Of a stretch of 64,000 nt of DNA, positions 3,992 through 24,400 are shown piece after piece. A model generated the notes under the pieces. It saw nothing but the letters and a program-made list of their open reading frames with translations, was not told the DNA's origin and did not search any database. How positions within the stretch are numbered: the stretch's first letter is position 1; each line of letters starts with the position of its first letter. Source of the stretch: an uncultured Roseobacter sp. (GTDB taxonomy: Bacteria; Pseudomonadota; Alphaproteobacteria; Rhodobacterales; Rhodobacteraceae); the NCBI RefSeq assembly GCF_947496515.1, contig NZ_CANMDB010000008.1, positions 1 through 64,000 of the forward strand. Reading direction: 5' to 3'. Both the position numbers and the translations under genes were made by a program.

Positions 3992-3992
3992 G

Positions 3993-6342: not shown

Positions 6343-6347
6343 TTTGC

Positions 6348-8688: not shown

Positions 8689-9434
8689 AGCTGCGCGACA
8701 GTCTGCTGGCCCTGCTGGTCGGGCTCGGCCTGTGGCAGGCGATCGTCGTTCTGACAGATGCGCCGCATTTCATCCTGCCCTCACCGGCGCGCGTGGCGGA
8801 GGCCGCCTACCAGAGCCGAGTGCTCATCGCACAGAACGCCTGGGTCACGGCGGTGGAGGTCTTTCTGGGGCTGGTGATCGGGACAGCTCTGGGTGTGGCG
8901 ACGGCGATCCAGTTGGCGCTGTCCAGAACCGCCGAGAGGCTGATGCTGCCGATCCTGGTCTTTACGCAAGCCGTGCCCGTCTTTGCGCTGGCGCCGCTGC
9001 TGACGCTGTGGTTCGGCTACGGGATGGCCTCCAAGATCGTGATGGCGGTGCTGATCATCTACTTCCCGGTAACCTCGGCCTTTCACGACGGGTTGACGCG
9101 GGTGGATCGTGGCGTCCGGGATCTGGCGCGGACCATGGACGCGGGGACATGGCGGTTCATGCGGCATGTTCAGATCCCGTCAGCCTTGCCGAGCCTTGGC
9201 AGCGGTCTGAAGCTGGCGGCAGTCTACGCGCCGATCGGTGCTGTCATCGGCGAATGGGTGGGCGCGTCGCGCGGGCTGGGCTATCTGATGCTGCTGGCCA
9301 ACGGGCGGGCCAAGATAGATCTGATGTTCGCCAGCCTGATCGTTCTGGCCTGCCTGACGGTGATGTTGCATCTGCTGGTAGGCAGGCTCGCCGCGCGGCT
9401 GACGCTCTATGCGCAGGGTCGGGCGGCTGACTAG
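8685..9434 (+). CDS. thiX: ABC transporter permease for thiamine pyrimidine precursor
   Basis: This inner membrane permease of the SsuC/TauC type has about six hydrophobic segments and the ATPase-contact EAA-like loop around RTMDAGTWRFMRHVQIPSAL followed by GAVIGEWVGASRGLGYL. It is 249 residues long and starts by ATGA overlap with thiZ. It is the last gene of the thiamine operon. Its stop is followed after about 35 bases by the palindromic repeat at 9470-9528, which may end transcription. Confidence 0.88.
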   Translation: MKLRDSLLALLVGLGLWQAIVVLTDAPHFILPSPARVAEAAYQSRVLIAQNAWVTAVEVFLGLVIGTALGVATAIQLALSRTAERLMLPILVFTQAVPVFALAPLLTLWFGYGMASKIVMAVLIIYFPVTSAFHDGLTRVDRGVRDLARTMDAGTWRFMRHVQIPSALPSLGSGLKLAAVYAPIGAVIGEWVGASRGLGYLMLLANGRAKIDLMFASLIVLACLTVMLHLLVGRLAARLTLYAQGRAAD

Positions 9435-9533: not shown

Positions 9534-10571
9534 TCAGACCAGGGCGCCGGTGGTGACAGATCCGGGGCCCGCGGTGATATCGGCGGTACGGGCGAGAATG
9601 TCGGTGCCCTGCATTTTCCAGAAGTGCAGAAGATCGATAAAGATCCAGTTCTCGGCCAGCCTGTCACCATCACGCCGGTAGATGTCCATCACGCGGAACT
9701 CGCCCGCGGTATCGGTTGAGGGCATCCCCATGAAGCCATCCGCGGGGACCGCGGTGAAATTGGGCCAGCCGAAAAATCCGCCGAAATGGCCTTCGGCCAG
9801 CCGGGCGACATGTCGGGTTTTCGAGCGGTTGGTGAAGGTCGCGCGGAAGGGGCCTGCGTGCTGTTTGGCGTAGCGTTCGATCGTGTAGGTCGCGCCAATG
9901 CCTTCGGGACCCCACCACAGCATATCCTCTGCCCATGTCCGTCGCAGCTCCTCCTCCAGCGTGAGCCCGCTGTTCCATTGGCCCAGATCGCTGATCATCC
10001 GTTCGATCAGCGCAAGCGTCTCTGCTCCGGCGGCGGGACACCGGGGGGTCATCATCACGCCATCGTGGGTCATGGGACCGGGCTGGATCAGATGTGCTGC
10101 GGTCTGGGGGGCAAACACGGTCAGACCCGCCTGCCGCATCAGGTGCGGGATGTCGAAGTACATCGCCGTCTCGGCGATCTGACCGTCCGTGACGCGGTGA
10201 AAGGCACAATACCGCAGCATGGCGATTTTGCCGGTGGGTGGAATGCCCAGCCACGGCCGGTCGAAGAGACCCATCAGATGGCCCATGGAGACCACCCAGA
10301 CACCGCCTTGCTCGGCGACGCTGTTCTGTCCTGCTATGAAGACATCCATGCGCCGCTGGAGCGACGTGAGTGCCTGACGCAGGGGGATCCAAAACGATTC
10401 GCCCACCTCCCGCGCGCTGCTGATTTCGTTGAAAGGATGATAGCCGCGCCACCGATACCCGTCACGCGCGAACTGCTCCATCACCGTCGGGATGTCCTCT
10501 TCCGCCGCACCGTCCAGTTGGGCGTAGAACCTAAGAACAATTTGTTTTTCTTCACTAAAATCAGGATTCAT
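9534..10571 (-). CDS. Two-domain SnoaL-like protein (345 aa)
   Basis: Two SnoaL/NTF2-like domains are apparent. The first (about residues 10-165) contains GYRWRGYHPF, LGIPPTGK and FHRVTDGQIAETAMYFD. The second (about 190-335) contains WWGPEGIGATY, FGWPNF and DRLAENWIFIDLL. It is a full-length paralogue of the protein at 16969-18012, sharing WxGPxGIG, GWPN and ENWxxxDLL in the same order. It is transcribed divergently from the ABC importer operon across a 131-base region holding a candidate LacI operator. SnoaL-fold proteins include cyclases, hydrolases, isomerases and dehydratases; the reaction cannot be named. The ATG at 10571 gives a protein that begins directly with the first domain. Confidence 0.85.
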   Translation of the reverse strand: MNPDFSEEKQIVLRFYAQLDGAAEEDIPTVMEQFARDGYRWRGYHPFNEISSAREVGESFWIPLRQALTSLQRRMDVFIAGQNSVAEQGGVWVVSMGHLMGLFDRPWLGIPPTGKIAMLRYCAFHRVTDGQIAETAMYFDIPHLMRQAGLTVFAPQTAAHLIQPGPMTHDGVMMTPRCPAAGAETLALIERMISDLGQWNSGLTLEEELRRTWAEDMLWWGPEGIGATYTIERYAKQHAGPFRATFTNRSKTRHVARLAEGHFGGFFGWPNFTAVPADGFMGMPSTDTAGEFRVMDIYRRDGDRLAENWIFIDLLHFWKMQGTDILARTADITAGPGSVTTGALV

Positions 10572-10597
10572 GGGGCGCTCATTGCTCGCTGGGGCGG

Positions 10598-10617
10598 TTT
10601 TGCATTCGATTGCAAAA
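10598..10617. promoter_or_regulatory. Candidate LacI-family operator
   Basis: TTTTGCATTCGATTGCAAAA is a 20-base near-perfect palindrome with a central CG, the usual shape of a LacI-family operator; only one symmetric pair fails. It lies in the divergent promoter region between the SnoaL-like gene (9534-10571) and the ABC transporter operon, and a LacI-type regulator is encoded in the same cluster at 18773. Binding by that regulator is inferred. Confidence 0.55.
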
Positions 10618-10702
10618 TACGTTGCCAAAGCGGACCGCTGATGTCTATGGTTGTGATGGGCTGCGGTAAAATAAAGCGCCGCATCATGTGTCGGGGGGCA
10701 CC

Positions 10703-11752
10703 ATGGCTGAGATACAATTGCGCAACTTGTCCAAGCGGTGGGGCTCTTTCGTCGGCGTCGATAACTTCGATCTGACCATCGCTGACAAGGAATTCTTGGT
10801 CCTGTTGGGGCCGTCGGGCTGCGGCAAGACCACGACAATGCGGATGATCGCGGGGCTGGAGGATGCCAGCGGTGGCGACATTCTGGTGGATGGGGACCGG
10901 GTCAACGATCTGGAGCCAAAGGACCGTGATGTCGCGATGGTTTTCCAGAGCTACGCGCTCTATCCCAACATGAATGTCTACGAGAACATTCGGTTCCCGC
11001 TGAAAGTGCGCAAGATCGATCCCAGCACACACGATGAAAAGGTGCGCCGCGCCAGCGCCATGGTGGAATTGGACGAGTTCCTGCACCGCAAACCGGCGGA
11101 GCTGTCGGGCGGGCAGCGGCAGCGCGTGGCGCTGGCCCGGGCCATCGTGCGCGAGCCCAATGTCTTTCTGATGGACGAGCCGCTGTCGAACCTCGATGCC
11201 AAGCTGCGCGTGTCCACCCGGGCGCAGATCAAGAACCTCAGCCACGAGCTGGCGGTCACGACGATCTACGTGACCCATGACCAGATCGAGGCAATGACGC
11301 TTGCCGACAGGGTCGTGGTGATGAAGGGCGGCGTCGTCCAGCAGGTGGGCAGCCCGACGGAGATCTACGACCGTCCGGCCAACGCATTCGTTGCGAGCTT
11401 TATCGGCAATCCTGCCATGAACCTGATCGAAGGCGATATGACGGGCGGCACCTTCCGCGCGCCCAATGTGGAGATTGCCGGGCTGGACGCACCGGATGGA
11501 AAAGTGACGCTGGGCTTTCGCGCCGAGGATGCGCAGGTCGCCACCCAAGGTGGGCAGATCACGGCACCGATCTACACGATGGAACTGCTGGGGGATGCGA
11601 CCATGGTCAGCGTCCGGATCAGTGGCGCATTGGTCAGCGTCAAGGCTGACAAAACCTTCCGCGCCGATATCGCCGATCCGGTGTCGATCTCGGTAGACAA
11701 GCAGTTTTGCCATCTTTTCGACACCACGTCAGGCGCGCGCATCGACGCATGA
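10703..11752 (+). CDS. Sugar-type ABC importer ATPase (UgpC/MalK family)
   Basis: The 349-residue ATPase has Walker A GPSGCGKTT, Q-loop VFQSYALYPNM, signature LSGGQRQRVALARA, Walker B VFLMDEPLSNLD, H-loop VTHDQIEAMTLADR and a C-terminal TOBE/regulatory domain (from about residue 235, FIGNPAMNLIEG onward) as in carbohydrate CUT1 importers. I chose the ATG at 10703 preceded by a G-rich site; a GTG at 10688 is also in frame. It heads the catabolic operon, ahead of the binding protein and two permeases. Confidence 0.9.
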   Translation: MAEIQLRNLSKRWGSFVGVDNFDLTIADKEFLVLLGPSGCGKTTTMRMIAGLEDASGGDILVDGDRVNDLEPKDRDVAMVFQSYALYPNMNVYENIRFPLKVRKIDPSTHDEKVRRASAMVELDEFLHRKPAELSGGQRQRVALARAIVREPNVFLMDEPLSNLDAKLRVSTRAQIKNLSHELAVTTIYVTHDQIEAMTLADRVVVMKGGVVQQVGSPTEIYDRPANAFVASFIGNPAMNLIEGDMTGGTFRAPNVEIAGLDAPDGKVTLGFRAEDAQVATQGGQITAPIYTMELLGDATMVSVRISGALVSVKADKTFRADIADPVSISVDKQFCHLFDTTSGARIDA

Positions 11753-11764
11753 TGGCCAGGGATT

Positions 11765-11810
11765 TCCCGCTGCGGCGGGAGCAACGGATGCAGTCTTCGA
11801 AGGTGCATCC
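11765..11810 (+). other. Two small hairpins upstream of the binding-protein gene
   Basis: TCCCGC (11765-11770) pairs with GCGGGA (11775-11780), and GGATGCA (11786-11792) pairs with TGCATCC (11804-11810). Both lie in the 82-base gap between the ATPase and the solute-binding protein genes, just before the binding-protein ribosome binding site. They could mark an mRNA processing or 5' protection site. Confidence 0.5.
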
Positions 11811-11834
11811 ATCTTTACAGGGAGAAGAGACACC

Positions 11835-13061
11835 ATGTTTCTGAGAAAAATCGCGCTGACGGGCGCAATGACATTCGCAGCCGCCGGCGCGGTTGCAGCC
11901 TGCGAAATACCTGGCAACGTCAGTATTGTCGGCAATGAATTTCCGGCCATCCAGACGGTCGCCAAGACCGCTGCCAAATGCGCTGGCGGTGAGGTAAAGG
12001 CGAACCTGACCGCGGATCATCAGAAAATCAACCTTGCGGGCATGCAAGGCAATCCGGCGGAATACAGCACCGCGATCATTGCGAATTCCTCCGTGGTGGC
12101 GCTGATCAACGAAGACGTGCTGCGCCCGCTGGACGATCTGGTGGCCGAATACGGTCAGGACATTCCCAAGCGGCAGTTGATCACCATCGACGGCAAGATC
12201 ATCGCGGTTGCCTTCATGGCGAACGCCCAGACACTCGCGTATCGCAAGGATGTGCTGGAAGAGGTCGGCGTCGGTGTGCCCACATCCTACGAAGAGGTGC
12301 TGGTCGCGGCGGAAAAGATCCGCGATGCGGGTATCAGCCAGTATCCCGTGGGCGGCGCCTATGCGGCGGGCTGGAACCTCGCGCAGGAATTCATCAACAT
12401 GTACATCGGTCACGGTGGCGAATTCTTTGCGCCCGGGTCGGCTGAGGTGGCGATCAACAACGAACAGGGTGTGGCAGCGCTTGAGATGATGAAGGCGCTG
12501 ACCGAATACATGAACCCCGATTTTCTCACCCACGATTCCAACGCGACGGGTGCGGAGATGGAAGCAGGTAACGTCATGCTCATGAATATGTGGGGGTCGC
12601 GCGTGGGGCCATTGATGGACAGCGAGGGTGCCGCCGAAGAGGTCTATACCAATATTGCCGTCAGCGGTCCGCTGATGGTCGGCGACAGCGGGACCCCTGC
12701 GTCGACCCTCTGGTGGGATGGTTGGACCGTGGCCAAGAACATCTCTGACGAGGATGCGGTCGCCACCTTCAAGGCGATGTCACATGGTATCAGCCCCGCC
12801 ATCCTGAACGAGGAAACCATGGGTCAGGCTGTCTGGATGATCGAAGGGTATGAGCCGGCGCCCGTCAACGATGGTGTCTTTGATGCCATCGCCAAGGGCA
12901 CGCCCTCCTACCCGATGCTGCCCTACATGGGGCTGTTGCACACGTCACTGGGTGACAACCTGGCAGACTTCCTGCTGGGCAAGGAAAGTGCCGAGCAGGC
13001 GCTGGCCGACGTAGAGGCCGCATATACAACAGCGGCCAAGGAAAAGGGTTTCCTGCAATAG
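11835..13061 (+). CDS. ABC importer solute-binding protein (family 1, carbohydrate type)
   Basis: The 408-residue periplasmic protein begins with a signal peptide (about residues 1-22); VAAC at 20-23 could also be read as a lipobox. The body has the extracellular binding protein family 1 pattern, including IITIDGK-like, NAQTLAYRKDVLEEVGV, PTSYEEVL and LWWDGWTVAKN. The substrate is unknown; cluster content suggests a polyol, sugar acid or other multiply hydroxylated compound. A strong site AGGGAGAAGAG precedes the ATG. Hairpins flank the gene on both sides, which may raise its mRNA level above that of the permeases. Confidence 0.9.
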   Translation: MFLRKIALTGAMTFAAAGAVAACEIPGNVSIVGNEFPAIQTVAKTAAKCAGGEVKANLTADHQKINLAGMQGNPAEYSTAIIANSSVVALINEDVLRPLDDLVAEYGQDIPKRQLITIDGKIIAVAFMANAQTLAYRKDVLEEVGVGVPTSYEEVLVAAEKIRDAGISQYPVGGAYAAGWNLAQEFINMYIGHGGEFFAPGSAEVAINNEQGVAALEMMKALTEYMNPDFLTHDSNATGAEMEAGNVMLMNMWGSRVGPLMDSEGAAEEVYTNIAVSGPLMVGDSGTPASTLWWDGWTVAKNISDEDAVATFKAMSHGISPAILNEETMGQAVWMIEGYEPAPVNDGVFDAIAKGTPSYPMLPYMGLLHTSLGDNLADFLLGKESAEQALADVEAAYTTAAKEKGFLQ

Positions 13062-13072
13062 GAAGCTGCACG

Positions 13073-13100
13073 CCCTCCGGCGCGGCACCGCGCCGGAGGG
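13073..13100 (+). other. Strong GC-rich hairpin after the binding-protein gene
   Basis: CCCTCCGGCGCG (13073-13084) and CGCGCCGGAGGG (13089-13100) form a perfect 12-bp stem with loop GCAC, starting eleven bases after the stop codon. No T-run follows, so it is more likely a 3' mRNA stabiliser or partial attenuator between the binding-protein and permease genes than a full terminator. Confidence 0.8.
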
Positions 13101-13139
13101 GTCTGCACGTGAGCCACGCTCCACCAGAGGACAGAGACG

Positions 13140-14162
13140 ATGAAGCATAGGTCATTTTTCTGGTTTGTTCTGCCGTCCGCCGTGGCGATGCTGCTGTTTA
13201 TCTTTTTCCCGATCATCTCGGTCATCGTGCAGTCGTTGCATACGGAGCATGAGCAGGTCATCCGCACCGTCGAAAGCTGCGATCTGTTCGGTTGCAAGGA
13301 AACCACGACCATTGATCAGGAAGCGACCGCCGCCCTGCGTGCTGAAAAACCGCTGGGCCAGTTTGCCGGTCTGACGACCTATCTCGACCGCAACCACCTG
13401 GCCGTGGACGAGGTTGCCATGACCTGGGGATCCGCGGAGAGCCTGCGTGATTTCGGCACCCAGATGCTGAACCTGCCGTTCTATAAGGCCATGGGCTTTA
13501 CCCTGACCTTTACCTTTGTCGTCACCCCTCTGGTGATCATCCTAGGCTTCATCATCGCCATTGCGGTTAACAGTGCCACCAAGATGATCCGTGGGCCGCT
13601 GATCTTTTTCTCGCTCTTGCCAATGATGATCACCCCGCTGGTGGGCGCGCTTATCCTGTTCTGGATGGTCGATGCGCGCGGGATCATCGGTACGACCTTG
13701 CAGCAGCTGGCGGGCGATCCGGATCTGTCGGTCAAGGCCTCCACGCCGCTGATGTGGATCATGCTGATGGTCTACGGTGTCTGGCATTCGGCGCCCTTTG
13801 CCTTCATCGTCTACTATGCCGGGCTGCAGACCGTGAACAAGGATACGCTGGAGGCGGCGCGCGTTGACGGTGCCAACAGGTGGCTGCAGATCCGCCATGT
13901 GGTGATCCCCCATCTGCTGCCGCTGACCACCTTCATTGCGCTGATGCAGCTGATGGACAATTTCCGCGTGTTTGAGCCCATCGTCAGCTTTTCCGCCAAC
14001 GCCCATGCGACCTCGCTCAGTTGGGCGATCTTCAACGATCTGGGCGGCGAGACGCGGCAGCTGTCGTCGGCGGCGGCCACATCGGTGCTGACCATCCTGG
14101 GGATTGCGATCCTGTTGTCGCCCGTTCTCGTGCGCACGTGGCGCGATTTTGACCGGAAGTAG
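13140..14162 (+). CDS. Sugar-type ABC importer permease (MalF-like)
   Basis: The 340-residue inner membrane permease opens with one helix (about residues 7-30), followed by a long extracytoplasmic stretch of about 80 residues and then five more helices, as in MalF-type subunits. The ATPase-contact loop EAARVDGANRWLQIRHVVIPHLLP lies near residue 240. It is preceded by AGAGGA and followed at once by the second permease. It is the first membrane partner of the importer in this operon. Confidence 0.88.
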   Translation: MKHRSFFWFVLPSAVAMLLFIFFPIISVIVQSLHTEHEQVIRTVESCDLFGCKETTTIDQEATAALRAEKPLGQFAGLTTYLDRNHLAVDEVAMTWGSAESLRDFGTQMLNLPFYKAMGFTLTFTFVVTPLVIILGFIIAIAVNSATKMIRGPLIFFSLLPMMITPLVGALILFWMVDARGIIGTTLQQLAGDPDLSVKASTPLMWIMLMVYGVWHSAPFAFIVYYAGLQTVNKDTLEAARVDGANRWLQIRHVVIPHLLPLTTFIALMQLMDNFRVFEPIVSFSANAHATSLSWAIFNDLGGETRQLSSAAATSVLTILGIAILLSPVLVRTWRDFDRK

Positions 14163-14169
14163 GTGAGAT

Positions 14170-15093
14170 ATGTCTGATACAGCACAAAGCCAACCGGTCA
14201 TCATCACGACCCAGCCTGACAAAGCCGGGCGCCAACCCATCATCATCACGACCCTGGTCGTCACCGTTTTGGCGATCTGGATGTTGCTTGCCGCGTTTCC
14301 GTTCATCTGGACGCTCTGGGGCTCCTTCAAGGTCGAGGGCGACTTTTTCTCCAAAGCAGACTGGACCAACGCGCTGACCGGCCCTTTGACCACAATCGAG
14401 ACAGGCGGTCCCTTTACCGGTGCAGGCTATCACGGTGCTTGGGTGCAGGAGGAGTTCTGGCGCGCGGCGATGAATTCGCTCATCGTGTGTTTCTTTGTGG
14501 TGACCATCTCGCTGACACTGGGCACGCTGGGGGGGTATGCGCTGGCCCGCTCCACCTACCGTTATGCGTTCTGGTTCCTGCTGGCCGCCCTGATCTTTCG
14601 CGCGATGCCGCCGATCACATTGGTCTCGGGCTATCTGCCGGTGTTCTTTCAGTGGAACCTCTGGGGGCACACGGCGACCACCATCATCGTGCTGGTGGCG
14701 ATCAACCAGCCCTTTACGCTCTGGATGCTGCACTCCTTCTTCAAGAACATCCCAGCCGAGCTGGACGAAAGCGCCATGGTCGATGGCTGCACAAGGTTTC
14801 AGGCTTTTCGCAACGTCATCATTCCGGTGATGTGGCCGGGGGTGATCACCACGGGGCTGTTTTCTTTCCTGCTGGCCTACAATGATTTCGCGGTAACGGC
14901 GATGCTGCTGTCCAAGGAAAACCAGACCATGATCCCCAAGGTGGCGAGTTTTCTCGGCACAACCCAGACCAAGGGCAACGTGATGTTCGCCGTCTCTTCG
15001 GTGGTATCGGTCACGGCGCCGCTCTTCCTGATGATCATGTTCTTCCAGCGCCAGATCGTCGGCGGTCTGACCGCGGGTGCGGTGAAGGGCTGA
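14170..15093 (+). CDS. Sugar-type ABC importer permease (MalG-like)
   Basis: The 307-residue permease has an N-terminal helix at about residues 30-50, a periplasmic loop, and five further helices. The EAA-type loop ELDESAMVDGCTRFQAFRNVIIPVMWPG lies near residue 200, typical of MalG-type subunits. It starts seven bases after the first permease with a good AGGTGAG site. With the products at 10703, 11835 and 13140 it completes one importer. Confidence 0.88.
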   Translation: MSDTAQSQPVIITTQPDKAGRQPIIITTLVVTVLAIWMLLAAFPFIWTLWGSFKVEGDFFSKADWTNALTGPLTTIETGGPFTGAGYHGAWVQEEFWRAAMNSLIVCFFVVTISLTLGTLGGYALARSTYRYAFWFLLAALIFRAMPPITLVSGYLPVFFQWNLWGHTATTIIVLVAINQPFTLWMLHSFFKNIPAELDESAMVDGCTRFQAFRNVIIPVMWPGVITTGLFSFLLAYNDFAVTAMLLSKENQTMIPKVASFLGTTQTKGNVMFAVSSVVSVTAPLFLMIMFFQRQIVGGLTAGAVKG

Positions 15094-15116: not shown

Positions 15117-15644
15117 ATGAAAGGCTCCCGACCCGAGCAGGCCGTGCTGACGCGCGACACCGACATGTCCAAGACCGATGAAACCCGCGCGGTGATCGAG
15201 GGCATGGTGGATGGTCTCAATGATCACCGGATCGACGACATTGGCGCTTTTTTCGCGGATGGGTTCCGTTGGATGGGCAATCAGGGTTGCGGGACCAAGA
15301 CCGGTTTGAAGGAATTTCAGGACAACTGGCAGCGGCCTTTTCAGGCGGCCTTCTCCGACAAGACCTGCATCGACGAGGCGCGGCTCTACATGGGCGAATG
15401 GGCGGCGGCCTTCGGGCGGCAGGAGGCCACGCATTCCGGTCCGTTCCTTGGCATCGCCCCCACCGGTAAACGGGTCGAGATCCGCTACATGGATTTCTGG
15501 AAGGTCGTGGATGGCAAGATCGTGGACAACTGGGTGAACGTGGATTTCGCCCATGTGGCGGCGCAGCTGGGCGTTGATTTGTTCAACGGGGAAGGCTGGG
15601 AAGCATTTGACCGAGGCGAGCGCACCGCACCCAGACCGGACTAA
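15117..15644 (+). CDS. Single-domain SnoaL-like protein (175 aa)
   Basis: This is a one-domain SnoaL/ester-cyclase-like protein. Motifs are [42 protein letters not shown] and [10 protein letters not shown], matching halves of the other SnoaL-like proteins in this cluster. AAAGAGG (15103-15109) supports the ATG at 15117; an internal ATG at 15165 would remove a 16-residue leader without motifs. It lies between the importer genes and the dehydrogenase in the same operon. Enzymatic role unknown. Confidence 0.82.
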
Positions 15645-15658: not shown

Positions 15659-16969
15659 ATGACGATCACCTACCTCAAACGCGGCAAGCCCGAGGCTGAT
15701 CGCGCCGATGACGACACCAAGACCGCTGCTGCCGTGTCGGCGACGCTCAGGGACATCGAGACGCGCGGTGACGTTGCCGTGCGCGAATTGGCCGTGAAGT
15801 TCGATGGCTATCACCGCGACAGCTACCGGCTGAGCCCGGCGGAGATCGACGCGCTGATTGCCAAGGTCGCCCCGCGCGATCTGGAGGACATCAAGTTCGC
15901 GCAGGCTCAGGTGGTGAACTTTGCGCAAGCCCAACGCGACAGCATGTTGGATATCGAAGTGGAAACCATGCCCGGCGTCATTCTGGGCCACAAGAACATA
16001 CCTGTGCAGTCGGTGGGCTGCTACGTTCCCGGGGGCAAGTTCCCCATGGTTGCCTCCGCCCATATGTCTGTGGCCACAGCCAAGGTCGCGGGCGTGCCGC
16101 GCATCATCGCCTGCACCCCGCCCTTCAAGGGCGAGCCGAACCCGGCGGTGATTGCCGCGATGCACCTCGGCGGCGCGCATGAGATTTACGTGCTGGGGGG
16201 CATTCAGGCGGTGGGCGCCATGGCGCTCGGTACGGAAACGATTGACCCGGTGCATCTGCTGGTGGGACCCGGCAACGCCTTCGTTGCGGAGGCCAAGCGC
16301 CAGCTCTTCGGCCGTGTGGGCATTGACCTCTTCGCAGGCCCAACGGAGACGATGGTGATCGCGGACGACACCGTGGACGCCGAGATGTGCGCCACGGATC
16401 TGCTGGGGCAGGCGGAGCATGGGTATAACTCTCCCGCGGTGCTGGTGACCAACTCCGAGAAGCTTGCCAAGGAGACACTGACCGAGATCGAGCGCATTCT
16501 GCAGATTTTGCCGACCGAAGGGACAGCGCGGGTCAGCTGGCAGGACTACGGCGAGGTGATCTTGTGTGACACCTACGATGAGATGCTGGAGGTCGCCGAT
16601 GACATCGCCTCCGAGCATGTGCAGGTGATGACCGACCGCGACGACTGGTTTCTGGAGAAGATGACCTGCTACGGCGCGCTCTTTCTCGGGCCCCGGACCA
16701 ATGTTGCCAATGGCGACAAGGTGATCGGCACCAACCACACGCTGCCGACGAAGAAGGCCGGGCGCTATACCGGTGGCCTCTGGGTGGGCAAGTACCTCAA
16801 GACCCACAGCTACCAGAAGATCACCACCGACGAGGCCGCCGCGAGGATCGGCGCCTACGGCTCGCGGCTCTGCATGCTCGAAGGGTTCGTGGGCCACGCG
16901 GAGCAGTGCAACCTGCGGGTCCGCCGCTACGGCGGGCAGAACGTGCCGTATGGAGAGGCGGCCGAGTGA
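15659..16969 (+). CDS. Histidinol dehydrogenase-family NAD-dependent dehydrogenase (HpsN-like)
   Basis: The 436-residue protein has the HisD fold signatures [36 protein letters not shown] and the metal-binding [13 protein letters not shown], plus a late histidine in GFVGHAEQ. It looks more like the HpsN branch (sulfopropanediol 3-dehydrogenase of marine roseobacters) than a biosynthetic HisD: no other his genes are present and it sits in a transport and catabolic operon. It would oxidise a primary alcohol in two NAD-dependent steps to a carboxylate. The substrate cannot be deduced. The stop overlaps the next start (TGATG). Confidence 0.82.
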
Positions 16970-18012
16970 TGACCGACCCCGCCGGGACAAAGGATCTGCT
17001 GATCCCGCTGCGCCGGGCGATGGCGGATATGTCCGAAGCGGGGGTGCGCGGGGCCTTGGCCTCTTTGCTGGCGGAGGATGTGGTGGTGCGGCTGTTTCAC
17101 CCGGTGGGGGAGGTCACGGGTGCTGCGTTCTATGATGCGGCCTATGCGCCGCTGCTTGCTGCCATGCCGGACGCGGAACGCCGCGATCTGATCGTGATGG
17201 AGGGGGCGGACGACGACGGCGCGCGGTGGGTCGGCTGCATGGGCCAGTACATGGGCAGCTTTCTCGGCCCCTTCCTGGACATCCCGCCCACGGGCCATCT
17301 GGCGCATCTGCGCTTTCACGAATTCTACCGGTTTGAGGGCGCGCAGGTTGTCGAAGTGCAGGCCATCTGGGACCTGCCGGAACTGATGATGCAGGCCGGT
17401 GTCTGGCCCATGGCGCCGAGCCTCGGGCGGGAGCTTTGCGTGCCGGCGCCGATGAGCCAGGACGGGCTGGGCCCGCATGATCCGCACGCCAGTGCGGCGA
17501 GCCGCGATCATGTCATCGACATGTTGACCCATCTTGTTCGGCACCCCGCCGAGGGCGGTGCGGAGGTGATGCAGGCGGAACGCTTCTGGCATCCGCGGAT
17601 GAACTGGTACGGGCCCGCGGGGATCGGCACCGCCCGAGGCATCGCGGGGTTCCGCGCCTGGCACCAGATCCCGTTTCTGAACGCCATGCCCGACCGCAAG
17701 GGCGGCACCAACGGCACGCTGCAGTCGCATTTCTTTGCCGAAGGGGCCTATGTCGCCGTCACCGGCTGGCCCAACATGCAGATGACGGTGACTGGCGACG
17801 GCTGGTTGGGGATTGCACCCGCGGGGCAGGAGATCACCCTGCGCAGCCTCGATTTCTGGCGGATGGAGGCGGGGCGTATCCGGGAAAACTGGGTGCTTGT
17901 CGATCTGCTCGATGCCTATGCTCAGCTGGGGGTCGATGTCTTGGCCCGGTTGCGGGAGTTCAATCAGGCACGGGTGCCCGGGCGGGTGCCAGTGCTCAGC
18001 GGGGCTGCCTGA
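16969..18012 (+). CDS. Two-domain SnoaL-like protein (347 aa)
   Basis: Two SnoaL/NTF2-like halves are visible. The first contains MGQYMGSFLGPFLDIPPTGH and LRFHEFYRF; the second contains NWYGPAGIGTARG, TGWPNMQMTV and LDFWRMEAGRIRENWVLVDLL. It is a paralogue of the divergent protein at 9534-10571. The ATG at 16969 overlaps the dehydrogenase stop, and its own stop overlaps the SDR start, so the three are translationally coupled. This suggests a role next to the two oxidation steps, but the reaction is unknown. Confidence 0.84.
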   Translation: MTDPAGTKDLLIPLRRAMADMSEAGVRGALASLLAEDVVVRLFHPVGEVTGAAFYDAAYAPLLAAMPDAERRDLIVMEGADDDGARWVGCMGQYMGSFLGPFLDIPPTGHLAHLRFHEFYRFEGAQVVEVQAIWDLPELMMQAGVWPMAPSLGRELCVPAPMSQDGLGPHDPHASAASRDHVIDMLTHLVRHPAEGGAEVMQAERFWHPRMNWYGPAGIGTARGIAGFRAWHQIPFLNAMPDRKGGTNGTLQSHFFAEGAYVAVTGWPNMQMTVTGDGWLGIAPAGQEITLRSLDFWRMEAGRIRENWVLVDLLDAYAQLGVDVLARLREFNQARVPGRVPVLSGAA

Positions 18013-18776
18013 TGGCACTGCCCCGGACCCCATCCTTTCGCCTCGACGGCAAGCGCGCGCTGGTCGCGGGTGCCAGCTCCGGAATCGGACTGGCCTGTGC
18101 CGCGGCCCTCGGTGAGGCCGGGGCGGAGGTTGTGCTGGCCGCGCGGCGATTGGATGCGCTGGATGCGCTGGCCGAGGAGATGCAGGCCGCAGGCATGCAC
18201 GCAGAGGCTTTGCCGCTCGACGTGGGCGATGTTGCTGCCACACAAGCCGCGGTGGCAGAGGCCGGACCTTTCGATGTGCTGGTCAATTCCGCCGGGCTCG
18301 CGCGGCATAGCCGTTCCGCCGACACCACGACCGAAGATTTTGATGCGGTTGCCGGACTTAACATCAAGGGCGCGTATTTCCTGACGCAGGCGGTGGCCAA
18401 GGGGCTGCTGGAAGCAGGCAAGCCCGGCAGCCTGATCAACATCTCCTCTCAAATGGCGCATGTGGGCGGGCCAGAGCGGGCGGTCTATTGCGCCACCAAA
18501 CACGCCGTTGAGGGCTTCACCAAATCCATGGCGATCGAATGGGGCAGGGCGGGCATCCGCGTCAACACCGTTTGCCCGACGTTCATCCTCACCGACCTGA
18601 CCCGCGGCACCTTTGAGCAACCTGACAAACGCGCCTGGATCGAGGAGAAGATCAAGCTGGGCCGGGTCGGCGAGGTCGAAGACATCATGGGCGCCGTGGT
18701 CTATCTGGCCAGCGAAGCATCGGCACTGGTGACCGGCACATCGCTGCTGATCGACGGCGGCTGGACCGCGGAATGA
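18012..18776 (+). CDS. Short-chain dehydrogenase/reductase
   Basis: This is a classical 254-residue SDR with the nucleotide motif AGASSGIG (residues 20-27), NSAG, catalytic Ser in NISSQ and YCATK, followed by the C-terminal GTSLLIDGGWTAE. An AR pair after the second strand (LAARR) suggests possible NADP use. Start and stop overlap the neighbours on both sides. In context it should oxidise or reduce a hydroxyl of the imported compound. Confidence 0.92.
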   Translation: MALPRTPSFRLDGKRALVAGASSGIGLACAAALGEAGAEVVLAARRLDALDALAEEMQAAGMHAEALPLDVGDVAATQAAVAEAGPFDVLVNSAGLARHSRSADTTTEDFDAVAGLNIKGAYFLTQAVAKGLLEAGKPGSLINISSQMAHVGGPERAVYCATKHAVEGFTKSMAIEWGRAGIRVNTVCPTFILTDLTRGTFEQPDKRAWIEEKIKLGRVGEVEDIMGAVVYLASEASALVTGTSLLIDGGWTAE

Positions 18777-19792
18777 GCCGGAACCGCGTCACCTCCGCCG
18801 AAGTCGCGAAACGCGCGGGCGTCAGCCAGTCGGCGGTGTCGCGGACCTTCACGCCCGGTGCCTCCGCGTCTCCCAAGACAGCGGAAAAGGTGCGCCGGGC
18901 GGCGACGGAACTCGGCTACCGCCCCAATGTGCTGGCGCGCGCCATGGTCTCGGGCAAGAGCCGCATCATCGGTCTGGTGGTGGCCTATCTGGAAAATCAG
19001 TTCTATCCGCAGGCGTTGGAAAAACTCTCCACCCAGTTGCAGCAGCGGGGGTATCATCTTTTGATTTTCACCGCCGACCAGGCGATGGGCAATGTGGACC
19101 AGGTGGTGGAGGAGATCCTCGATTATCAGGTGGACGGGATCATCGCGGCTTCGGTTGATATGTCCTCGAACCTGGCCAAGCGTTGCCGGGCGGCGGGCGT
19201 GCCGATGGTGCTCTTCAACCGGTCGCAGGACGATCCCACCATGTCCGCGGTGACCTCGGACAACCATGCAGGCGGGCGCAAGGTGGCGGAGTTCCTGCTG
19301 GCCGGGGGGCACCGCAAGATCGCGCATATCGCGGGCTGGGATGAGACTTCGACCCAGCGGGACCGCGAGGCAGGGTTCGTCGCGGCGCTGACAGCGGCGG
19401 GGGTGCCGTTGCACGCCCGTGGCAGCGGGGACTTCACGATGGAGAAAGCTGCGGAGGCTGCGCGCGCCATCTGTGCTGCCGATCCGCCCGACGCGATTTT
19501 CGTCACCAATGATCACATGGCGCTGGCGGTGATGGACACGCTGCGGTTCGAGCTGGGGCTTGATGTGCCGGGTGATGTTTCGGTGGTCGGATACGACGAT
19601 GTGCCCGCCGCCAGCTGGCCCTCCTACCGCTTGACCACGGTACGGCAGCCTGCCAACCGGATGGTCGCCAAGACGGTCGAGATCCTTCTGGATCAGATCG
19701 AGAACGCCACTGCCCGCACGCGGCGGATCGCCATCGACGGGCCGATGATCCTGCGCACCTCCGCCCGCATTCCCAAAGGATGGAACACATGA
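18773..19792 (+). CDS. LacI-family transcriptional regulator
   Basis: The 339-residue regulator has an N-terminal helix-turn-helix (TSAEVAKRAGVSQSAVSRTF, residues 6-25), the hinge region RPNVLARAM, and a periplasmic-binding-protein-like effector domain ending in TVRQPANRMV and ILRTSARIP. It is embedded inside the operon (ATGA overlaps on both sides), so it is probably autoregulated with the catabolic genes. The candidate operator at 10598-10617 in front of the operon is its likely target. The effector is expected to be the substrate or an intermediate. Confidence 0.93.
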   Translation: MSRNRVTSAEVAKRAGVSQSAVSRTFTPGASASPKTAEKVRRAATELGYRPNVLARAMVSGKSRIIGLVVAYLENQFYPQALEKLSTQLQQRGYHLLIFTADQAMGNVDQVVEEILDYQVDGIIAASVDMSSNLAKRCRAAGVPMVLFNRSQDDPTMSAVTSDNHAGGRKVAEFLLAGGHRKIAHIAGWDETSTQRDREAGFVAALTAAGVPLHARGSGDFTMEKAAEAARAICAADPPDAIFVTNDHMALAVMDTLRFELGLDVPGDVSVVGYDDVPAASWPSYRLTTVRQPANRMVAKTVEILLDQIENATARTRRIAIDGPMILRTSARIPKGWNT

Positions 19793-20763
19793 AGGGGTTC
19801 AACCCGAAATTCACCGATTTCCCGGATTACATCCTGAAAATCACTCATGAAATCTGGGAAGAGCGCGGCATCGCCACGCTGGACCACTACTACGCGCCGG
19901 ACATTCCCGTCCGTTTCGCCGAAGGCGTCTCCATCGGAAATCAGCGTACCAAAGCCGGCACGCTGGCCACGCTGGCCGAATTCCCCGACCGCGAGTTGAT
20001 GGGGGAGGACGTGATCTGGTCCGGTGACGATACGGCGGGCTATCTGTCCTCGCACCGGCTGCTGACCACCGGGACGCACACCGGTGGTGGGTATTTCGGC
20101 CCACCCACGGGCAAAAGGTTTACCGTTCGCGCTATCGCGGACTGTGCCGCAATCAACGATCAGATCTATGACGAGTGGCTGATCCGCGACACGACCGGCA
20201 TCGTCAGGCAGCTGGGAATGGAACCCAAGCAATTTGCCCGGGATCTCATCGCCCGGGAAGGGGGGCCGGAGACCTGTACCAAACCGCTCAACCCCGCGAC
20301 GGACGTGGAAGGCCCGTATCAGGGCCGCGGCAATGACAATGAATGGGGACAACGGCTCGGCGATATCCTGACCCGGATGATGAACACCGATTTCGCCGTG
20401 ATCCGTGCGGAATACGACCGTGCGGTGCAGACAGAGCACCCCGGCGCTGTCACGGTGCATTCCTGGGCCGACACGGAACGGCTCTGGATGGGGTTGCGAT
20501 CCTCCTTCCCCAATGCCCGTTTTGCCATCGACCACCAGATCGGTCGCGAGGATCCGATGCTGCCGCCGCGGGCGGCTGTCCGCTGGCACTTGCACGGCAC
20601 CCACGATGGCTGGGGCATGTTTGGCCAGCCCACCGGGGCAGAGGTCTATGTGATGGGTTTCACCCATGCGGAGTTCGGCCCCTACGGTCTGCGCCGAGAG
20701 TGGACATTGTTCGAGCCTGTCTCGATCTGGAAACAGATCCTGATGCAGACCGGTGATCTCTAA
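19789..20763 (+). CDS. Two-domain SnoaL-like protein, divergent (324 aa)
   Basis: The N-terminal half (residues about 15-150) carries DHYYAPDIPVRF, GGGYFGPPTGKRFTVRAIAD and DEWLIRD. The C-terminal half (about 190-320) carries MGLRSSFPNARFAIDHQIG, RWHLHGTHDGWGMFGQPTG and FEPVSIWKQIL. Both are SnoaL/ester-cyclase-like. It is more distant from the pair at 9534 and 16969 than they are from each other. AAAGGA at 19775-19780 favours the ATG at 19789, which overlaps the LacI stop, over the ATG at 19780. Its stop overlaps a possible small gene (TAATG). Confidence 0.82.
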   Translation: MKGFNPKFTDFPDYILKITHEIWEERGIATLDHYYAPDIPVRFAEGVSIGNQRTKAGTLATLAEFPDRELMGEDVIWSGDDTAGYLSSHRLLTTGTHTGGGYFGPPTGKRFTVRAIADCAAINDQIYDEWLIRDTTGIVRQLGMEPKQFARDLIAREGGPETCTKPLNPATDVEGPYQGRGNDNEWGQRLGDILTRMMNTDFAVIRAEYDRAVQTEHPGAVTVHSWADTERLWMGLRSSFPNARFAIDHQIGREDPMLPPRAAVRWHLHGTHDGWGMFGQPTGAEVYVMGFTHAEFGPYGLRREWTLFEPVSIWKQILMQTGDL

Positions 20764-20909: not shown

Positions 20910-21872
20910 ATGAGCACCATCCAAGACCTCATCGTCCGCTACGGCGATCTGAAACCCTGTAAGACCGCCTTTATCGACGCCCACACACCCGGGTCCGACC
21001 GCAAGGAAAACTTCACCATCATCGGCGGCGGCGTCAGCGAAAGCCCCGATCAGCACGTGCATCTGACCGACCGTATCGGGTTCAACATCGGGGCGGCGGG
21101 CCAGCCACCCAAATGCCGCAACAGTCTGCATTGTCACCGCACCGCGGAGGTCTTTTTCGTCTTGAAGGGGCGCTGGCGCTTTTTCTGGGGTCGCTACGGG
21201 ACGGCGGGCGCGTTCATCGCGGAAGAGGGCGATATCTTCAACATCCCCACGGGCATTTTCCGCGGGTTCGAGAACGTTGGTACGGACTACGGGATGATCA
21301 TGGCGATCCTCGGCGGGGATGACGCGGGCGGCGGGGTCATCTGGGCGCCGCAGGTGATCGAGGACGCGCGCGAGCACGGGCTGGTGCTGGGCGAGAATGG
21401 CAAGCTGTACGACAGCAAAAAGGGGGAGGCGCTGCCCGAGGGTCTCAAGCCCATGCCGCTCCTCACCGAAGAGGCGCTCAAGACCTATCCGGAAGTCCCG
21501 GTCGAGGATGTGATCGGCACATATGTGGCGCGCTACTGGGATCTGATGGCGCTGGCCGCGCGCAAGCCTGCCAAGGTCATCGGCGCGGATGCGGTGTTGC
21601 GCGACAAACCGGGGTTCGAGGTGGATTTCCTGACCCGCGGCTCTGTCCCCGACGAGATGGAGAGCCACGACAAGCCCACCGTGCTGATGCCCCTGCGCGG
21701 TCACTGGCTGCTGCGCTACGAAGACGGTGAAACGGTGCTGAACCCCGGTGACACCGCGCTGATCCACCCTGGCGAGGCACATGCTGTGGCGCCGTCGATG
21801 ACAGGTGAGGCGAGCCTCTACCGCGTGCGGGCGACGGATGATCCCGCTGGCCCCACCTGGACCGGTAGCTGA
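20910..21872 (+). CDS. Bicupin protein (320 aa)
   Basis: The first cupin (about residues 50-140) has a metal-site pattern SLHCHRTAEVFFVLKGRW, with the two histidines and the glutamate expected for a metal centre, and GDIFNIPTGIFRGFEN. The second cupin (about 230-315) reads MESHDKPTVLMPLRGHW and LNPGDTALIHPGEAHAV and has a poorer metal site. Proteins of this layout include dioxygenases, isomerases and lyases of small organic acids. A strong AAAGGAG precedes the ATG. It begins the second half of the catabolic operon. Confidence 0.82.
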   Translation: MSTIQDLIVRYGDLKPCKTAFIDAHTPGSDRKENFTIIGGGVSESPDQHVHLTDRIGFNIGAAGQPPKCRNSLHCHRTAEVFFVLKGRWRFFWGRYGTAGAFIAEEGDIFNIPTGIFRGFENVGTDYGMIMAILGGDDAGGGVIWAPQVIEDAREHGLVLGENGKLYDSKKGEALPEGLKPMPLLTEEALKTYPEVPVEDVIGTYVARYWDLMALAARKPAKVIGADAVLRDKPGFEVDFLTRGSVPDEMESHDKPTVLMPLRGHWLLRYEDGETVLNPGDTALIHPGEAHAVAPSMTGEASLYRVRATDDPAGPTWTGS

Positions 21873-21890
21873 CATAAAAAGGATCCTGAA

Positions 21891-23015
21891 ATGAGTATCG
21901 TCAAGACAACCCACACAGGGTCTCTGCCACGCAGCCAGGAGGTGGTCGATTTCATCTTTGCGCGTGAACATGGCAAACCCTATGACACCGAAGCCTTTGA
22001 TACCTGTATCACCGAGGCGGTATCGGAGACGGTGCGCAAACAGGTGGCGGCGGGTGTCGATATCGTCTCGGACGGGGAGACCTCGAAGATCTCCTATGCC
22101 ACGTACGTCAAGGACCGCTACACCGGTTTTGACGGGGACAGCCCGCGCAACGCGCCCGCGGATCTCAAGATGTTTCCCGGCTATCTCAAGCGGCTCGCCG
22201 ATGATGGTGGGACCCCGCAATACGCGCGGCCCATGTGCGTCGGCGAGGTGCGCTCCAACGGGCAGGAAGAACTGCAGCGCGACATCGCAAATCTCAAGGC
22301 GGCGATGGCGCAACACGGAGCGACACGCGGTTTTATGAATGCGGCGAGCCCCGGGGTGATTTCCCTGTTCCTGCAGAACGACTTCTATCCGACGCGGGAG
22401 GCGTATCTGGCTGCGCTCGCCGATGCGATGAAGGCTGAGTACGAGACGATCGTGGCGGCCGGGCTGGACCTGCAGCTGGACTGCCCGGATCTGGCGCTGT
22501 CGCGGCACATGCTTTTCACGGATCTCACGGACGATGAATTCATCGCGGTCGCGAATTCGCATGTGGAGGCGCTGAACCATGCGCTGGCGGATATCCCCGC
22601 CGAGCGGGTGCGCGTGCACATTTGCTGGGGCAATTACGAGGGGCCGCATTGTTGCGACATTCCCATGGCCAAGATGTTCGACACGCTGATGTCGACAAAA
22701 TCGCGCTATGTGCTCTTTGAGACTTCGAACCCGCGGCACGGCCACGAATGGACCGTGTTCCGCGACCGCAAGGATGACATTCCCGATGACAAGGTGTTGG
22801 TGCCAGGGGTAGTCGATACGACGACCAACTTCGTCGAGCACCCGGAGCTGGTCGCGGAGCGGATCACGCGTTTTGCGGGGATCGTCGGGTCGGAGCGGGT
22901 GATCGCCGGATCTGATTGCGGCTTTGGCACCTTCGCCGGTTTCGGCGCGGTGGATCCTGACATCGCCTACGCCAAACTTGCAGCGCTCGCCGACGGGGCG
23001 GCTCTGGCCTCGTGA
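21891..23015 (+). CDS. Cobalamin-independent methionine synthase C-terminal-domain protein (MetE core)
   Basis: This 374-residue TIM-barrel protein corresponds to the catalytic C-terminal half of MetE alone; no N-terminal folate domain exists. Zinc-site residues are visible as HIC in VRVHICWGNYEG and the cysteine in GSDCGFGTF, with a glutamate in LFETSN. Relatives include thiol methyltransferases and epoxyalkane:coenzyme M transferase, which activate a thiol on zinc. In this operon the protein may cleave or form a C-S bond or remove a methyl group from the substrate. That is inference. The stop overlaps the hydrolase start. Confidence 0.85.
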   Translation: MSIVKTTHTGSLPRSQEVVDFIFAREHGKPYDTEAFDTCITEAVSETVRKQVAAGVDIVSDGETSKISYATYVKDRYTGFDGDSPRNAPADLKMFPGYLKRLADDGGTPQYARPMCVGEVRSNGQEELQRDIANLKAAMAQHGATRGFMNAASPGVISLFLQNDFYPTREAYLAALADAMKAEYETIVAAGLDLQLDCPDLALSRHMLFTDLTDDEFIAVANSHVEALNHALADIPAERVRVHICWGNYEGPHCCDIPMAKMFDTLMSTKSRYVLFETSNPRHGHEWTVFRDRKDDIPDDKVLVPGVVDTTTNFVEHPELVAERITRFAGIVGSERVIAGSDCGFGTFAGFGAVDPDIAYAKLAALADGAALAS

Positions 23016-23704
23016 CACCGCTTGTCCTGCTGCCCGGCATGATGTGCGATGCACGGCTGTTTTTGCCGCAGATCGCGGCGTTCTCGGCGATCCGAACGGT
23101 GATCAGCGCTGAGATCTGGCGCCACGACAGCATTGGTGCGCTGGCGGAGGCCGTGCTGGCGGATGCGCCTGCGCGTTTTGCGCTCGCAGGGCTGTCGATG
23201 GGCGGGATCGTCGCGATGGAGATCCTGCGGCGCGCGCCGGAGCGCGTGGCGCGCATTGCGCTGATGGATACTAATCCGCTGGCGGAGACGGAGACCGTCA
23301 AAGCCCGCCGCGCTCCCCAAATGGTCGCGGTCCGCGAGGGACGGCTGGCGGAGGTGATGCGCGACGAGATGAAGCCGAACTACCTGAGCCACGGCGCTCA
23401 GCGCGCCGAGGTGCTGTCGCTTTGCATGGAGATGGCGCTGGACCTCGGACCGGAGGTTTTTGTCACCCAATCACAGGCGCTGATGGACCGGCCTGACCAG
23501 ACCGGGACGTTGCGCGCCGCAACGCTGCCGGCGCTGGTGCTCTGCGGGCGTGACGATACGCTTTGCCCCATAGCACGGCACGAGTTGATGGCCGGGCTGA
23601 TCCCCGGCGCGCAGCTGGAGATCATCGACGGCGCCGGGCATCTGCCCACGCTCGAACAACCGGCGAGGACCAATGAGGCCCTTGCCCGCTGGCTGGAGGA
23701 TTGA
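23012..23704 (+). CDS. Alpha/beta hydrolase
   Basis: The 230-residue alpha/beta hydrolase has the oxyanion stretch LLPGMMCDARLF, nucleophile elbow AGLSMGG (Ser62), the acid in CGRDDTLCP and the catalytic histidine in GAGHLPTLEQP. The GTG start overlaps the MetE-like stop (GTGA). It would hydrolyse an ester, lactone, thioester or C-C bond in the pathway. No signal peptide is seen, so it is cytoplasmic. Confidence 0.9.
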   Translation: MTPLVLLPGMMCDARLFLPQIAAFSAIRTVISAEIWRHDSIGALAEAVLADAPARFALAGLSMGGIVAMEILRRAPERVARIALMDTNPLAETETVKARRAPQMVAVREGRLAEVMRDEMKPNYLSHGAQRAEVLSLCMEMALDLGPEVFVTQSQALMDRPDQTGTLRAATLPALVLCGRDDTLCPIARHELMAGLIPGAQLEIIDGAGHLPTLEQPARTNEALARWLED

Positions 23705-24400
23705 ATGGACGACACGCTGCTGAGCCTGCTGAGGCAGGTCGATACCCCGACCGTTTGCAACGCCATCGAAGTGGCCCAGGGCAAGCGTGGGTTTGATGCC
23801 TTCACACGCGGGACCGTTCTGGCGTCTGACCCGGGCGCGCCTGCGATGGTGGGCTATGCGCGCACGGCGCGGATCGCTGCCGTGCACCCGCCCGAAGAAC
23901 CCGCGGATGTGATCAAGGCCCGGCGGATGGATTACTACCGCCATATGGCGAGCGGTCCGCGCCCGGGCGTCGCCGTGGTCGAGGACATGGATGTGCCCAA
24001 TGCAATTGGCGCCTATTGGGGCGAGATCAACACCACGATCCACAAGGGCTTCGGCCTGTCAGGGGCGCTGACCAACGGGGTCATGCGTGACCTGGGCGAT
24101 CTGCCCGAGGCGTTCCCGGTCGTCGCAGGCTCAATCGGGCCGAGCCATGGGTTCGTGCACGTGCGCGAGATTGCGACCCCCGTCACCGTCTTTGGCATGG
24201 CGGTCAGCGACGGTGATCTGATCCACGCGGACAGGCATGGCGCGCTGGTGATCCCGTCAGAGGTTGTCCCGGTTCTGGAGGCCGCCATTCACAAGCTGCT
24301 GGAAACCGAAAAGCTGGTGTTGGACCCCGCCCGGCGCGAGGGCTTTGATTTCGATGCTTTCGAGACCGCATGGGCAGCGTTCGAGAAGGCGCGGACCTGA
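23705..24400 (+). CDS. RraA-family protein (aldolase/decarboxylase type)
   Basis: The 231-residue protein follows the hydrolase stop directly. RraA-fold motifs include VDTPTVCNAIEVAQG, GYARTA, GAYWGEINTTIHKGFGLSGALTNGVMRD and VSDGDLIHADRHGALVIP. The late RD and DGDLIHAD residues match the Mg-dependent 4-hydroxy-4-methyl-2-oxoglutarate aldolase/oxaloacetate decarboxylase members. It is the last gene of the cluster and may cleave the final keto acid to pyruvate or a related central metabolite. Confidence 0.85.
   Translation: MDDTLLSLLRQVDTPTVCNAIEVAQGKRGFDAFTRGTVLASDPGAPAMVGYARTARIAAVHPPEEPADVIKARRMDYYRHMASGPRPGVAVVEDMDVPNAIGAYWGEINTTIHKGFGLSGALTNGVMRDLGDLPEAFPVVAGSIGPSHGFVHVREIATPVTVFGMAVSDGDLIHADRHGALVIPSEVVPVLEAAIHKLLETEKLVLDPARREGFDFDAFETAWAAFEKART

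Follow-up and report, generated by a model that had tools for sequence, protein, structure and literature searches.

We examined a 64,000-nucleotide window (positions 1 to 64,000, forward strand, of contig NZ_CANMDB010000008.1 from an uncultured Roseobacter sp.), focusing on four plus-strand open reading frames (ORFs) at positions 20910–24400, whose coordinates were confirmed. These encode a bicupin protein (20910–21872, 320 aa; based on the ORF, Pfam, an alignment and an AlphaFold2 (AF2) model), a protein consisting of the catalytic barrel of the methionine synthase MetE (hereafter MetE-core; 21891–23015, 374 aa; ORF, Pfam, tree, model and residue checks), an alpha/beta hydrolase with a GTG start (23012–23704, 230 aa; ORF and Pfam) and an RraA-like, aldolase-family protein (23705–24400, 231 aa; ORF and Pfam). 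The cupin and MetE-core genes are separated by an 18-base spacer containing an AAGGA stretch, the MetE-core and hydrolase genes share a 4-base GTGA overlap (23012–23015), and the hydrolase stop directly abuts the RraA start with no gap. An initial annotation had described a four-gene sub-operon, with translational coupling of MetE-core to the hydrolase and the hydrolase adjoining the RraA-like gene, and all of this was borne out; the Pfam domains agree.

Upstream and on the same strand, the nearest gene encodes a double SnoaL-domain protein (SnoaL2b, 19780–20763, alternative start 19789), preceded by the LacI-family regulator of the cluster (18773–19792) and a short-chain dehydrogenase (SDR, 18012–18776), all three assigned by domain search and neighbour counts. 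Farther upstream are a second double SnoaL-domain protein (SnoaL2a, 16906–18012, true start probably 16963; ORF and domain search), a HisD/HpsN-family dehydrogenase with the motif G-K-F-P-M (15659–16969; domain search and motif comparison), a single SnoaL-domain protein (15117–15644; domain search) and a sugar-type (CUT1) ABC importer (10688–15093), the last recognized from its ORFs and from counterparts in Ruegeria that are annotated likewise. The importer comprises an ATPase (10688–11752), a binding protein (11835–13061) and two permeases (13140–14162 and 14170–15093). Ahead of it, a palindrome search located a LacI-type operator, TTTTGCATTCGATTGCAAAA, at 10598–10617 (no strand assigned), and a divergent double SnoaL-domain protein is encoded on the minus strand (ORF 9534–10838, true start by eye probably near 10574).

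The linkage of the cupin, MetE-core, hydrolase and RraA genes is beyond chance and is part of a conserved cluster. We surveyed 80 loci, namely the best 80 of at least 587 confirmed stretches around MetE-core relatives in named genomes, which are biased towards close relatives because the best-scoring ones were taken and some of which are cut by contig ends. On the MetE-core strand, SnoaL2b was found in 69 of these loci, the cupin and SDR in 67 each, the HisD-like dehydrogenase in 66, LacI in 60, SnoaL2a in 55, the hydrolase in 52, SnoaL1 in 51 and RraA in 41. Record titles of the loci included Rhodobacterales, SAR116, SUP05/Thioglobus, HTCC2255, Planktomarina, Granulosicoccaceae, Devosia and Rhizobiaceae, and it is on such record names that we refer to the cluster as marine. 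MetE-core (≥70% identity) was present in 26 of 79 genomes and the cupin (≥65% identity) in 28, with all 26 in common; these thresholds leave out distant matches, and counting everything at E ≤ 0.001 gives 38 and 34 of the 79, respectively. By genus, 51 of 61 have neither gene and 8 of 10 have both; a Fisher test of this co-inheritance overstates independence since the 79 genomes are related and 19 belong to one genus. The two genomes with the cupin only are G025, in which the ORFs after the cupin presumably encode an IS66-type transposase, and G036, which has the order HisD-SDR-cupin-hydrolase-RraA with the importer (L263, contig C1), lacks MetE-core in this cluster and carries a 33% MetE-core match elsewhere. 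Additional genes stand beside the cluster in some loci (a S-adenosylmethionine methyltransferase, a GMC oxidoreductase, a glyoxalase, a glutathione S-transferase, a DUF6653 protein and others with no Pfam match), and these extra neighbours point to no substrate.

The cluster is predicted to form one LacI-controlled regulon, with a cluster-specific palindromic operator upstream of cluster promoters. The palindrome TTTTGCATTCGATTGCAAAA is the genome's only match to the search pattern without a mismatch, and it differs at three positions from the 16-base consensus TTGCATACGTATGCAA drawn over 97 loci (the window, the 80 loci from named genomes, 14 other genome loci and 2 plasmid records). Allowing up to three mismatches, the consensus yielded 62 sites in the 97 loci, and 58 of them, from 37 loci, fall no more than 350 bases upstream of a homologue of a cluster gene. 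By comparison, none of 30 palindromes shuffled at constant composition exceeded 16 sites in total or 4 in such upstream positions. The sites stand mostly ahead of the importer or HisD. MetE-core itself has a site within 200 bases upstream in 3 of the 97 loci (L036, L088 and L098), and in 300 tries with shuffled palindromes a single site ahead of MetE-core was obtained 7 times and none 293 times. The L036 site, from genome G019, reaches 20.9 on a weight matrix built from 46 sites that themselves score 19.8 to 28.8. G019 carries the regulon as three separate units, each with a site: the importer-SnoaL-HisD genes (L222, 2 mismatches), the cupin alone (L221, 1 mismatch) and MetE-core alone (L036, 3 mismatches). 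This shared operator across split units is the strongest indication that the cupin and MetE-core act in the same pathway as the importer. A second G019 cluster (L223, contig C10) has the order HisD-LacI-cupin-hydrolase-RraA with an importer and without MetE-core, and the G019 and G036 arrangements together suggest that the methyl step discussed below is an optional module. Elsewhere, two near-identical palindromes with a TTTGCAACCGGTTGCAAA core (G000:C17:43302–43321 and 47616–47635) are perhaps operators of another LacI-family regulator within that genome, G000.

MetE-core matches Pfam Meth_synt_2 (41.6 bits), and its AF2 model (pLDDT 90.9) aligns over residues 2–374 to residues 402–729 of Thermotoga maritima MetE (1xdj; 324 aligned, VIA Z 33.7, root-mean-square deviation 2.4). 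Since the full length aligns to the C-terminal barrel, the N-terminal folate half is absent. The zinc site is predicted by alignment to comprise H243-x-C245...C343 with E277 as the fourth ligand (E. coli H641, C643, E665 and C726). The initial annotation had claimed both the loss of the N-terminal half and the HxC...C zinc pattern, and both hold, the four ligands being kept in 80 of 80 relatives from named genomes. Residues S11, E63 and D197 align with S433, E484 and D599 of E. coli MetE, which we take, from MetE structures, to hold homocysteine. These three, the zinc ligands and a clade-specific motif NPxHxH (N280-P-x-H283-x-H285) make up ten checked residues, all of which are kept in 80 of 80 relatives; across a wider clade of 25, NPxHxH is kept in 25 and E277 in 22.

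The phylogenetic placement proposed in the initial annotation was carried out on 33 sequences, after one of 34 (Natrinema_MetE_a) was dropped for lack of the catalytic residues; core-MetE was represented by one haloarchaeal protein and the epoxyalkane:CoM transferases by one EtnE. It placed MetE-core outside the tested methionine synthases, in a separate clade of 25 sequences split from MetE, haloarchaeal core-MetE, EtnE and others with an ultrafast bootstrap (UFBoot) of 100, on a branch of about 1.35 substitutions per site; branching outside this clade is partly unresolved (two nodes, 44 and 54). The best score of MetE-core against NCBIfam methionine synthase models was 86.1 bits, below the cut-off of 406. 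While MetE-core shares with MetE of E. coli and T. maritima the barrel fold, zinc ligands and homocysteine-site serine, glutamate and aspartate, it differs in lacking the N-terminal half, in having F160 where E. coli has W561 (by alignment), in its NPxHxH motif, in its separate clade and in its place in a catabolic regulon. The best fold match was a single-barrel, B12-independent methionine synthase-like protein from Shewanella (3rpd; VIA Z 36.0, 23% identity), although sequence similarity to it is very low (phmmer, 25.3 bits). The core-MetE proteins of Dehalococcoides and archaea, as described in the part of PMC7005905 considered here, likewise combine a single barrel with the HxC...C zinc motif, while the one haloarchaeal core-MetE in our tree falls in a different clade from MetE-core. 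No MetE-core relative was found on viral contigs among 28 pattern matches.

The cupin matches Pfam Cupin_2 (43.3 bits), and its first domain carries H74-x-H76-x3-E80 plus H49/H51, invariant in 18 aligned sequences; its AF2 model (pLDDT 82.4) has a fold resembling bicupin dioxygenases and oxalate decarboxylases, with a TM of about 0.5 only, a general match in the structure search. The hydrolase matches Pfam Abhydrolase_1 and Abhydrolase_6 (47.8 and 48.6 bits), and the nearest NCBIfam models, 3-oxoadipate enol-lactonases, score far under cut-off (101.9 versus 390 and 90.5 versus 255.85 bits). The RraA-like protein matches Pfam RraA-like (55.5 bits) and stays under the cut-off of every NCBIfam model matched, including the LigK-type 4-carboxy-4-hydroxy-2-oxoadipate (CHA)/4-hydroxy-4-methyl-2-oxoglutarate (HMG) aldolase model (28.7 bits; cut-off 304.5).

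Some more distant relatives of MetE-core occur in one-carbon settings. On a Croceicoccus plasmid (L146:4966–10271), the gene stands in the row MTHFR-purU-folD-folB-MetE core-NTF2-IclR beside protocatechuate 4,5-cleavage genes and DesA, the latter confirmed at 839.9 bits (cut-off 800). Of 12 sphingomonad-type loci, 6 carry both DesA-type and MTHFR genes (L051, L056, L146, L184, L185 and L186), 9 of the 12 coming from one family and being taken as sphingomonads by inference, and the six linked relatives are 48–54% identical to the MetE-core of the window. In these six loci the MetE-type protein appears tied to lignin methoxyl metabolism (MTHFR, purU or folD, DesA). Beyond the marine cluster, NTF2/SnoaL neighbours recur unevenly. 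By annotation, all three sphingomonad plasmid regions have them, as do Pantoea, Roseomonas, Rhodococcus opacus and one haloarchaeal region of seven (Halobellus), the plasmid gene table being incomplete; they were absent by annotation from 3 of 3 other actinobacterial regions and were not found beside MetE-core in L184–L186. Haloarchaeal relatives have varied neighbours, and on a Halobellus limi plasmid (L053:2744–9137) five consecutive SnoaL 'ester cyclase' genes stand directly before the relative, next to a PhnCDE-like transporter. A Rhodococcus plasmid relative directly follows a full-length metE. Rhodococcus NJ-530 (L052) and Dietzia (L137) show an unrelated context, in which the relative is followed by a 2-oxoglutarate oxygenase, a YaaH transporter and a PhyH-HD pair, which recalls the oxidative phosphonate enzymes PhnY/PhnZ.

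Methyl chemistry is favoured by three lines of evidence: the clade stands apart from the tested methionine synthases, the gene lies in a catabolic regulon and relatives sit in a tetrahydrofolate and O-demethylation setting. The explanation we prefer, to which we give slightly less than an even chance, is that the four genes form the downstream half of the LacI-controlled catabolic regulon and that MetE-core demethylates an intermediate of a methyl-bearing, sugar- or polyol-like metabolite. It builds on the linkage, the common operator and a MetE barrel that keeps a zinc and homocysteine-type thiol site, has lost the folate half and forms its own clade. In this scheme, the substrate would enter through the CUT1 importer and be oxidized by the HpsN-like dehydrogenase and the SDR, with the SnoaL proteins and bicupin helping. 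MetE-core would bind a zinc-activated amino-acid-type thiol, most likely homocysteine, and methylate it at the expense of a methylated intermediate of the pathway, or of a carrier that this intermediate has charged, yielding methionine and the demethylated intermediate, whose carbon skeleton the hydrolase and RraA-type aldolase may then open and cleave. On this view, MetE-core would serve catabolic demethylation through a methionine-synthase-like action and would not be the methionine synthase of the cell.

Several points weigh against this explanation. The methyl transfer is deduced from fold and residues, and homocysteine-dependent demethylation of an ordinary ether is chemically demanding and would need an activated methyl group (sulfonium, ammonium or enol ether). 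Neither the RraA-like protein nor the hydrolase reaches any NCBIfam cut-off, and the cupin has no NCBIfam match at all. The DesA/MTHFR setting is missing from 6 of the 12 sphingomonad-type loci (L187 and L190–L194), and no folate or demethylase gene was seen among neighbours of the marine cluster in tblastn searches with folate-operon queries covering L036, L195–L199 and a few later stretches, so that the one-carbon link rests on relatives of 48–54% identity. As for the operator, the contrast is with other palindromes and is no independent test because the consensus derives from the very loci, related to one another, that were counted; in 60 of the 97 loci no cluster gene is preceded by a site (many of the loci start within the cluster), the window has none directly upstream of the cupin sub-operon, and all three MetE-core sites lie at the three-mismatch limit, those of L088 and L098 scoring only 14.4 and 15.5.

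Part of the case can be read from Phaeobacter inhibens, in which a 'Mes-like' gene, PGA1_c27430, has been deleted (PMC12366255, of which a part was considered here, as for all statements from this paper below). Four of the six knock-out primers translate into neighbours seen in the window: AFIDAH in the cupin, PLLLL for PLVLL in the hydrolase (4/5), and IGAYWG (6/6) and IAGSIG for VAGSIG (5/6) in RraA; the other two have no match. Given these matches, Mes-like is the orthologue of MetE-core in the same arrangement, with no difference seen. An exact search with a P. inhibens primer gave no match in 394 genomes of the family, nearly all from different genera. The Mes-like mutant was grown in glucose medium, methionine being supplied to a bmt mutant alone, and dimethylsulfoniopropionate (DMSP) still shortened the lag of the Mes-like mutant; the authors treated Mes-like for lag-phase shortening and methionine synthesis, and the considered part does not describe the cluster (PMC12366255). 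The test that the initial annotation had set against its own proposal, a mutant whose only phenotype is methionine auxotrophy, is thereby partly answered, the P. inhibens deletion having been grown without added methionine (PMC12366255). A housekeeping methionine synthase was rejected as the sole reading on the same growth result and on the tree placement.

An unlikely but still appreciable alternative is that the gene encodes a core-MetE, a reserve methionine synthase that needs neither cobalamin nor folate, comes into use when cobalamin is short and is encoded with the catabolic cluster by chance. The MetE fold and homocysteine site would suit such a role, and the host genome has three homocysteine S-methyltransferase-family matches and one RACo-type match, which would fit a split MtgBCDE system. 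A profile search found no MetH activation domain (PF02965) in the host genome, a weak absence since the same search gave no PF01717 match though MetE-core itself scores 41.6 bits. Expression under cobalamin limitation is thought plausible for such homologues in the considered part of PMC12478193, where the function of core-MetE-like homologues is also called questionable, and the P. inhibens bmt mutant still grew weakly when methionine was lacking, for which its authors discussed Mes-like as a candidate (PMC12366255). However, the tree places MetE-core apart from both the methionine synthases and the single haloarchaeal core-MetE included, the LacI operator links the gene to a sugar-type importer, and MetE-core is co-inherited with the cupin.

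The initial annotation had instead hinted at sulfonate, thioether or methylated-sulfur chemistry, partly from an HpsN-like enzyme upstream. That resemblance is confirmed, the dehydrogenase being nearer HpsN (387 bits), its closest solved relative, than any HisD (252 bits at best). In HpsN sulfopropanediol dehydrogenase, the motif is G-R-Y-A/S-H, whose histidine binds the sulfonate, according to the considered part of PMC11382572. This His126 motif is missing from the window enzyme, which has G-K-F-P-M at that position, and none of the 82 matches at ≥60% identity has His126, a Met or Leu standing in its place, whereas the equivalent of HpsN Lys353, a second sulfonate contact, is kept (GDK in 83 of 83 matches at ≥60% identity); these matches pool loci from named and other genomes with possible overlap, and 6 of 88 below 60% identity were set aside. 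Judged by these residues, the enzyme is probably neither a histidinol nor a 2,3-dihydroxypropane-1-sulfonate (DHPS) dehydrogenase. One of the six set-aside matches, at 44% identity, is a further HisD-family gene in L101; it reads GRYSH, the HpsN motif, and shares its 21 kb locus with the cluster. As the histidine is lost and the lysine kept, the sulfonate part of the earlier hint is weakened and not refuted, while its methyl part is strengthened by the clade, the regulon and the relatives in folate settings. Catabolism of a sulfonate, thioether or other organosulfur compound, with MetE-core acting on the substrate sulfur, seems improbable to us: a zinc-thiol enzyme would suit it, as would the HpsN-like dehydrogenase with its retained lysine, the TauD/TfdA-family dioxygenase and flavin reductase that follow an IS6 transposase about 2 kb beyond RraA in Octadecabacter, and the TusA and DsrE-like genes near a distant haloarchaeal relative. 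Against it stand the loss of His126 and the reading of the two annotated clusters (Ruegeria and Octadecabacter), which brought up no sulfonate-cleaving gene, though no systematic search was made.

Least probable of all, and very unlikely in our judgement, is a reaction like that of epoxyalkane:coenzyme M (CoM) transferase, in which a zinc-bound thiol would open a pathway epoxide and the partners with SnoaL/limonene-epoxide-hydrolase folds would act on the same epoxide. EtnE of Nocardioides JS614, which we take to be such a transferase from its alkene monooxygenase operon, shares the superfamily and zinc site, and the NTF2-fold neighbours recurring beside MetE-type genes include one annotated in the limonene-1,2-epoxide hydrolase family. 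Yet EtnE has Asn and Lys at the positions of S11 and E63, changes absent here, and falls outside the clade, and no monooxygenase was seen in the annotated clusters of Ruegeria and Octadecabacter. The analogy drawn in the initial annotation is not supported, and an EaCoMT-type enzyme was rejected on the homocysteine-site residues and tree placement. Whatever weight the preferred demethylase and these three alternatives leave over falls to something else.

Returning to the catabolic demethylase, a bolder version, which we regard as quite a long shot, is that the NPxHxH clade is a new demethylase class in which a lone MetE barrel passes the methyl group of a natural product to zinc-bound homocysteine without folate, cobalamin or oxygen. 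Guessing from chemistry, candidate donors would include methylated polyols and rings of the mycosporine or gadusol type, the latter through their methyl enol ether; the mycosporine tertiary alcohol beside a CH2OH group would fit an HpsN-like oxidation followed by RraA-type aldol cleavage. If this were true, many ocean bacteria would, through this clade, obtain methionine as they degrade an abundant algal compound. The cluster is widespread in whole or in part, with the LacI operator in a subset, which suggests an abundant metabolite, and with the operator, the binding protein and the available deletion mutant, ordinary experiments can identify the substrate. Searches of the open-licence literature found no paper describing the cluster and none on mycosporine catabolic genes; the part of PMC8091115 considered had nothing on a MetE-like gene, and that of PMC6888825 held only general remarks on folate and methionine. 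Two papers from 2025 noticed core-MetE-like proteins in marine bacteria (PMC12478193 and PMC12366255, each considered in part), and here the gene is tied to a catabolic set.

Outside the cluster, two sets of genes in the window were recognized by eye: scpA/scpB-like genes downstream of RraA and, at 1952–9434 just upstream of the cluster, thiamine-like ORFs (ThiD, ThiO, ThiG, ThiE, ThiF, TenA and a ThiY-like ABC transporter).

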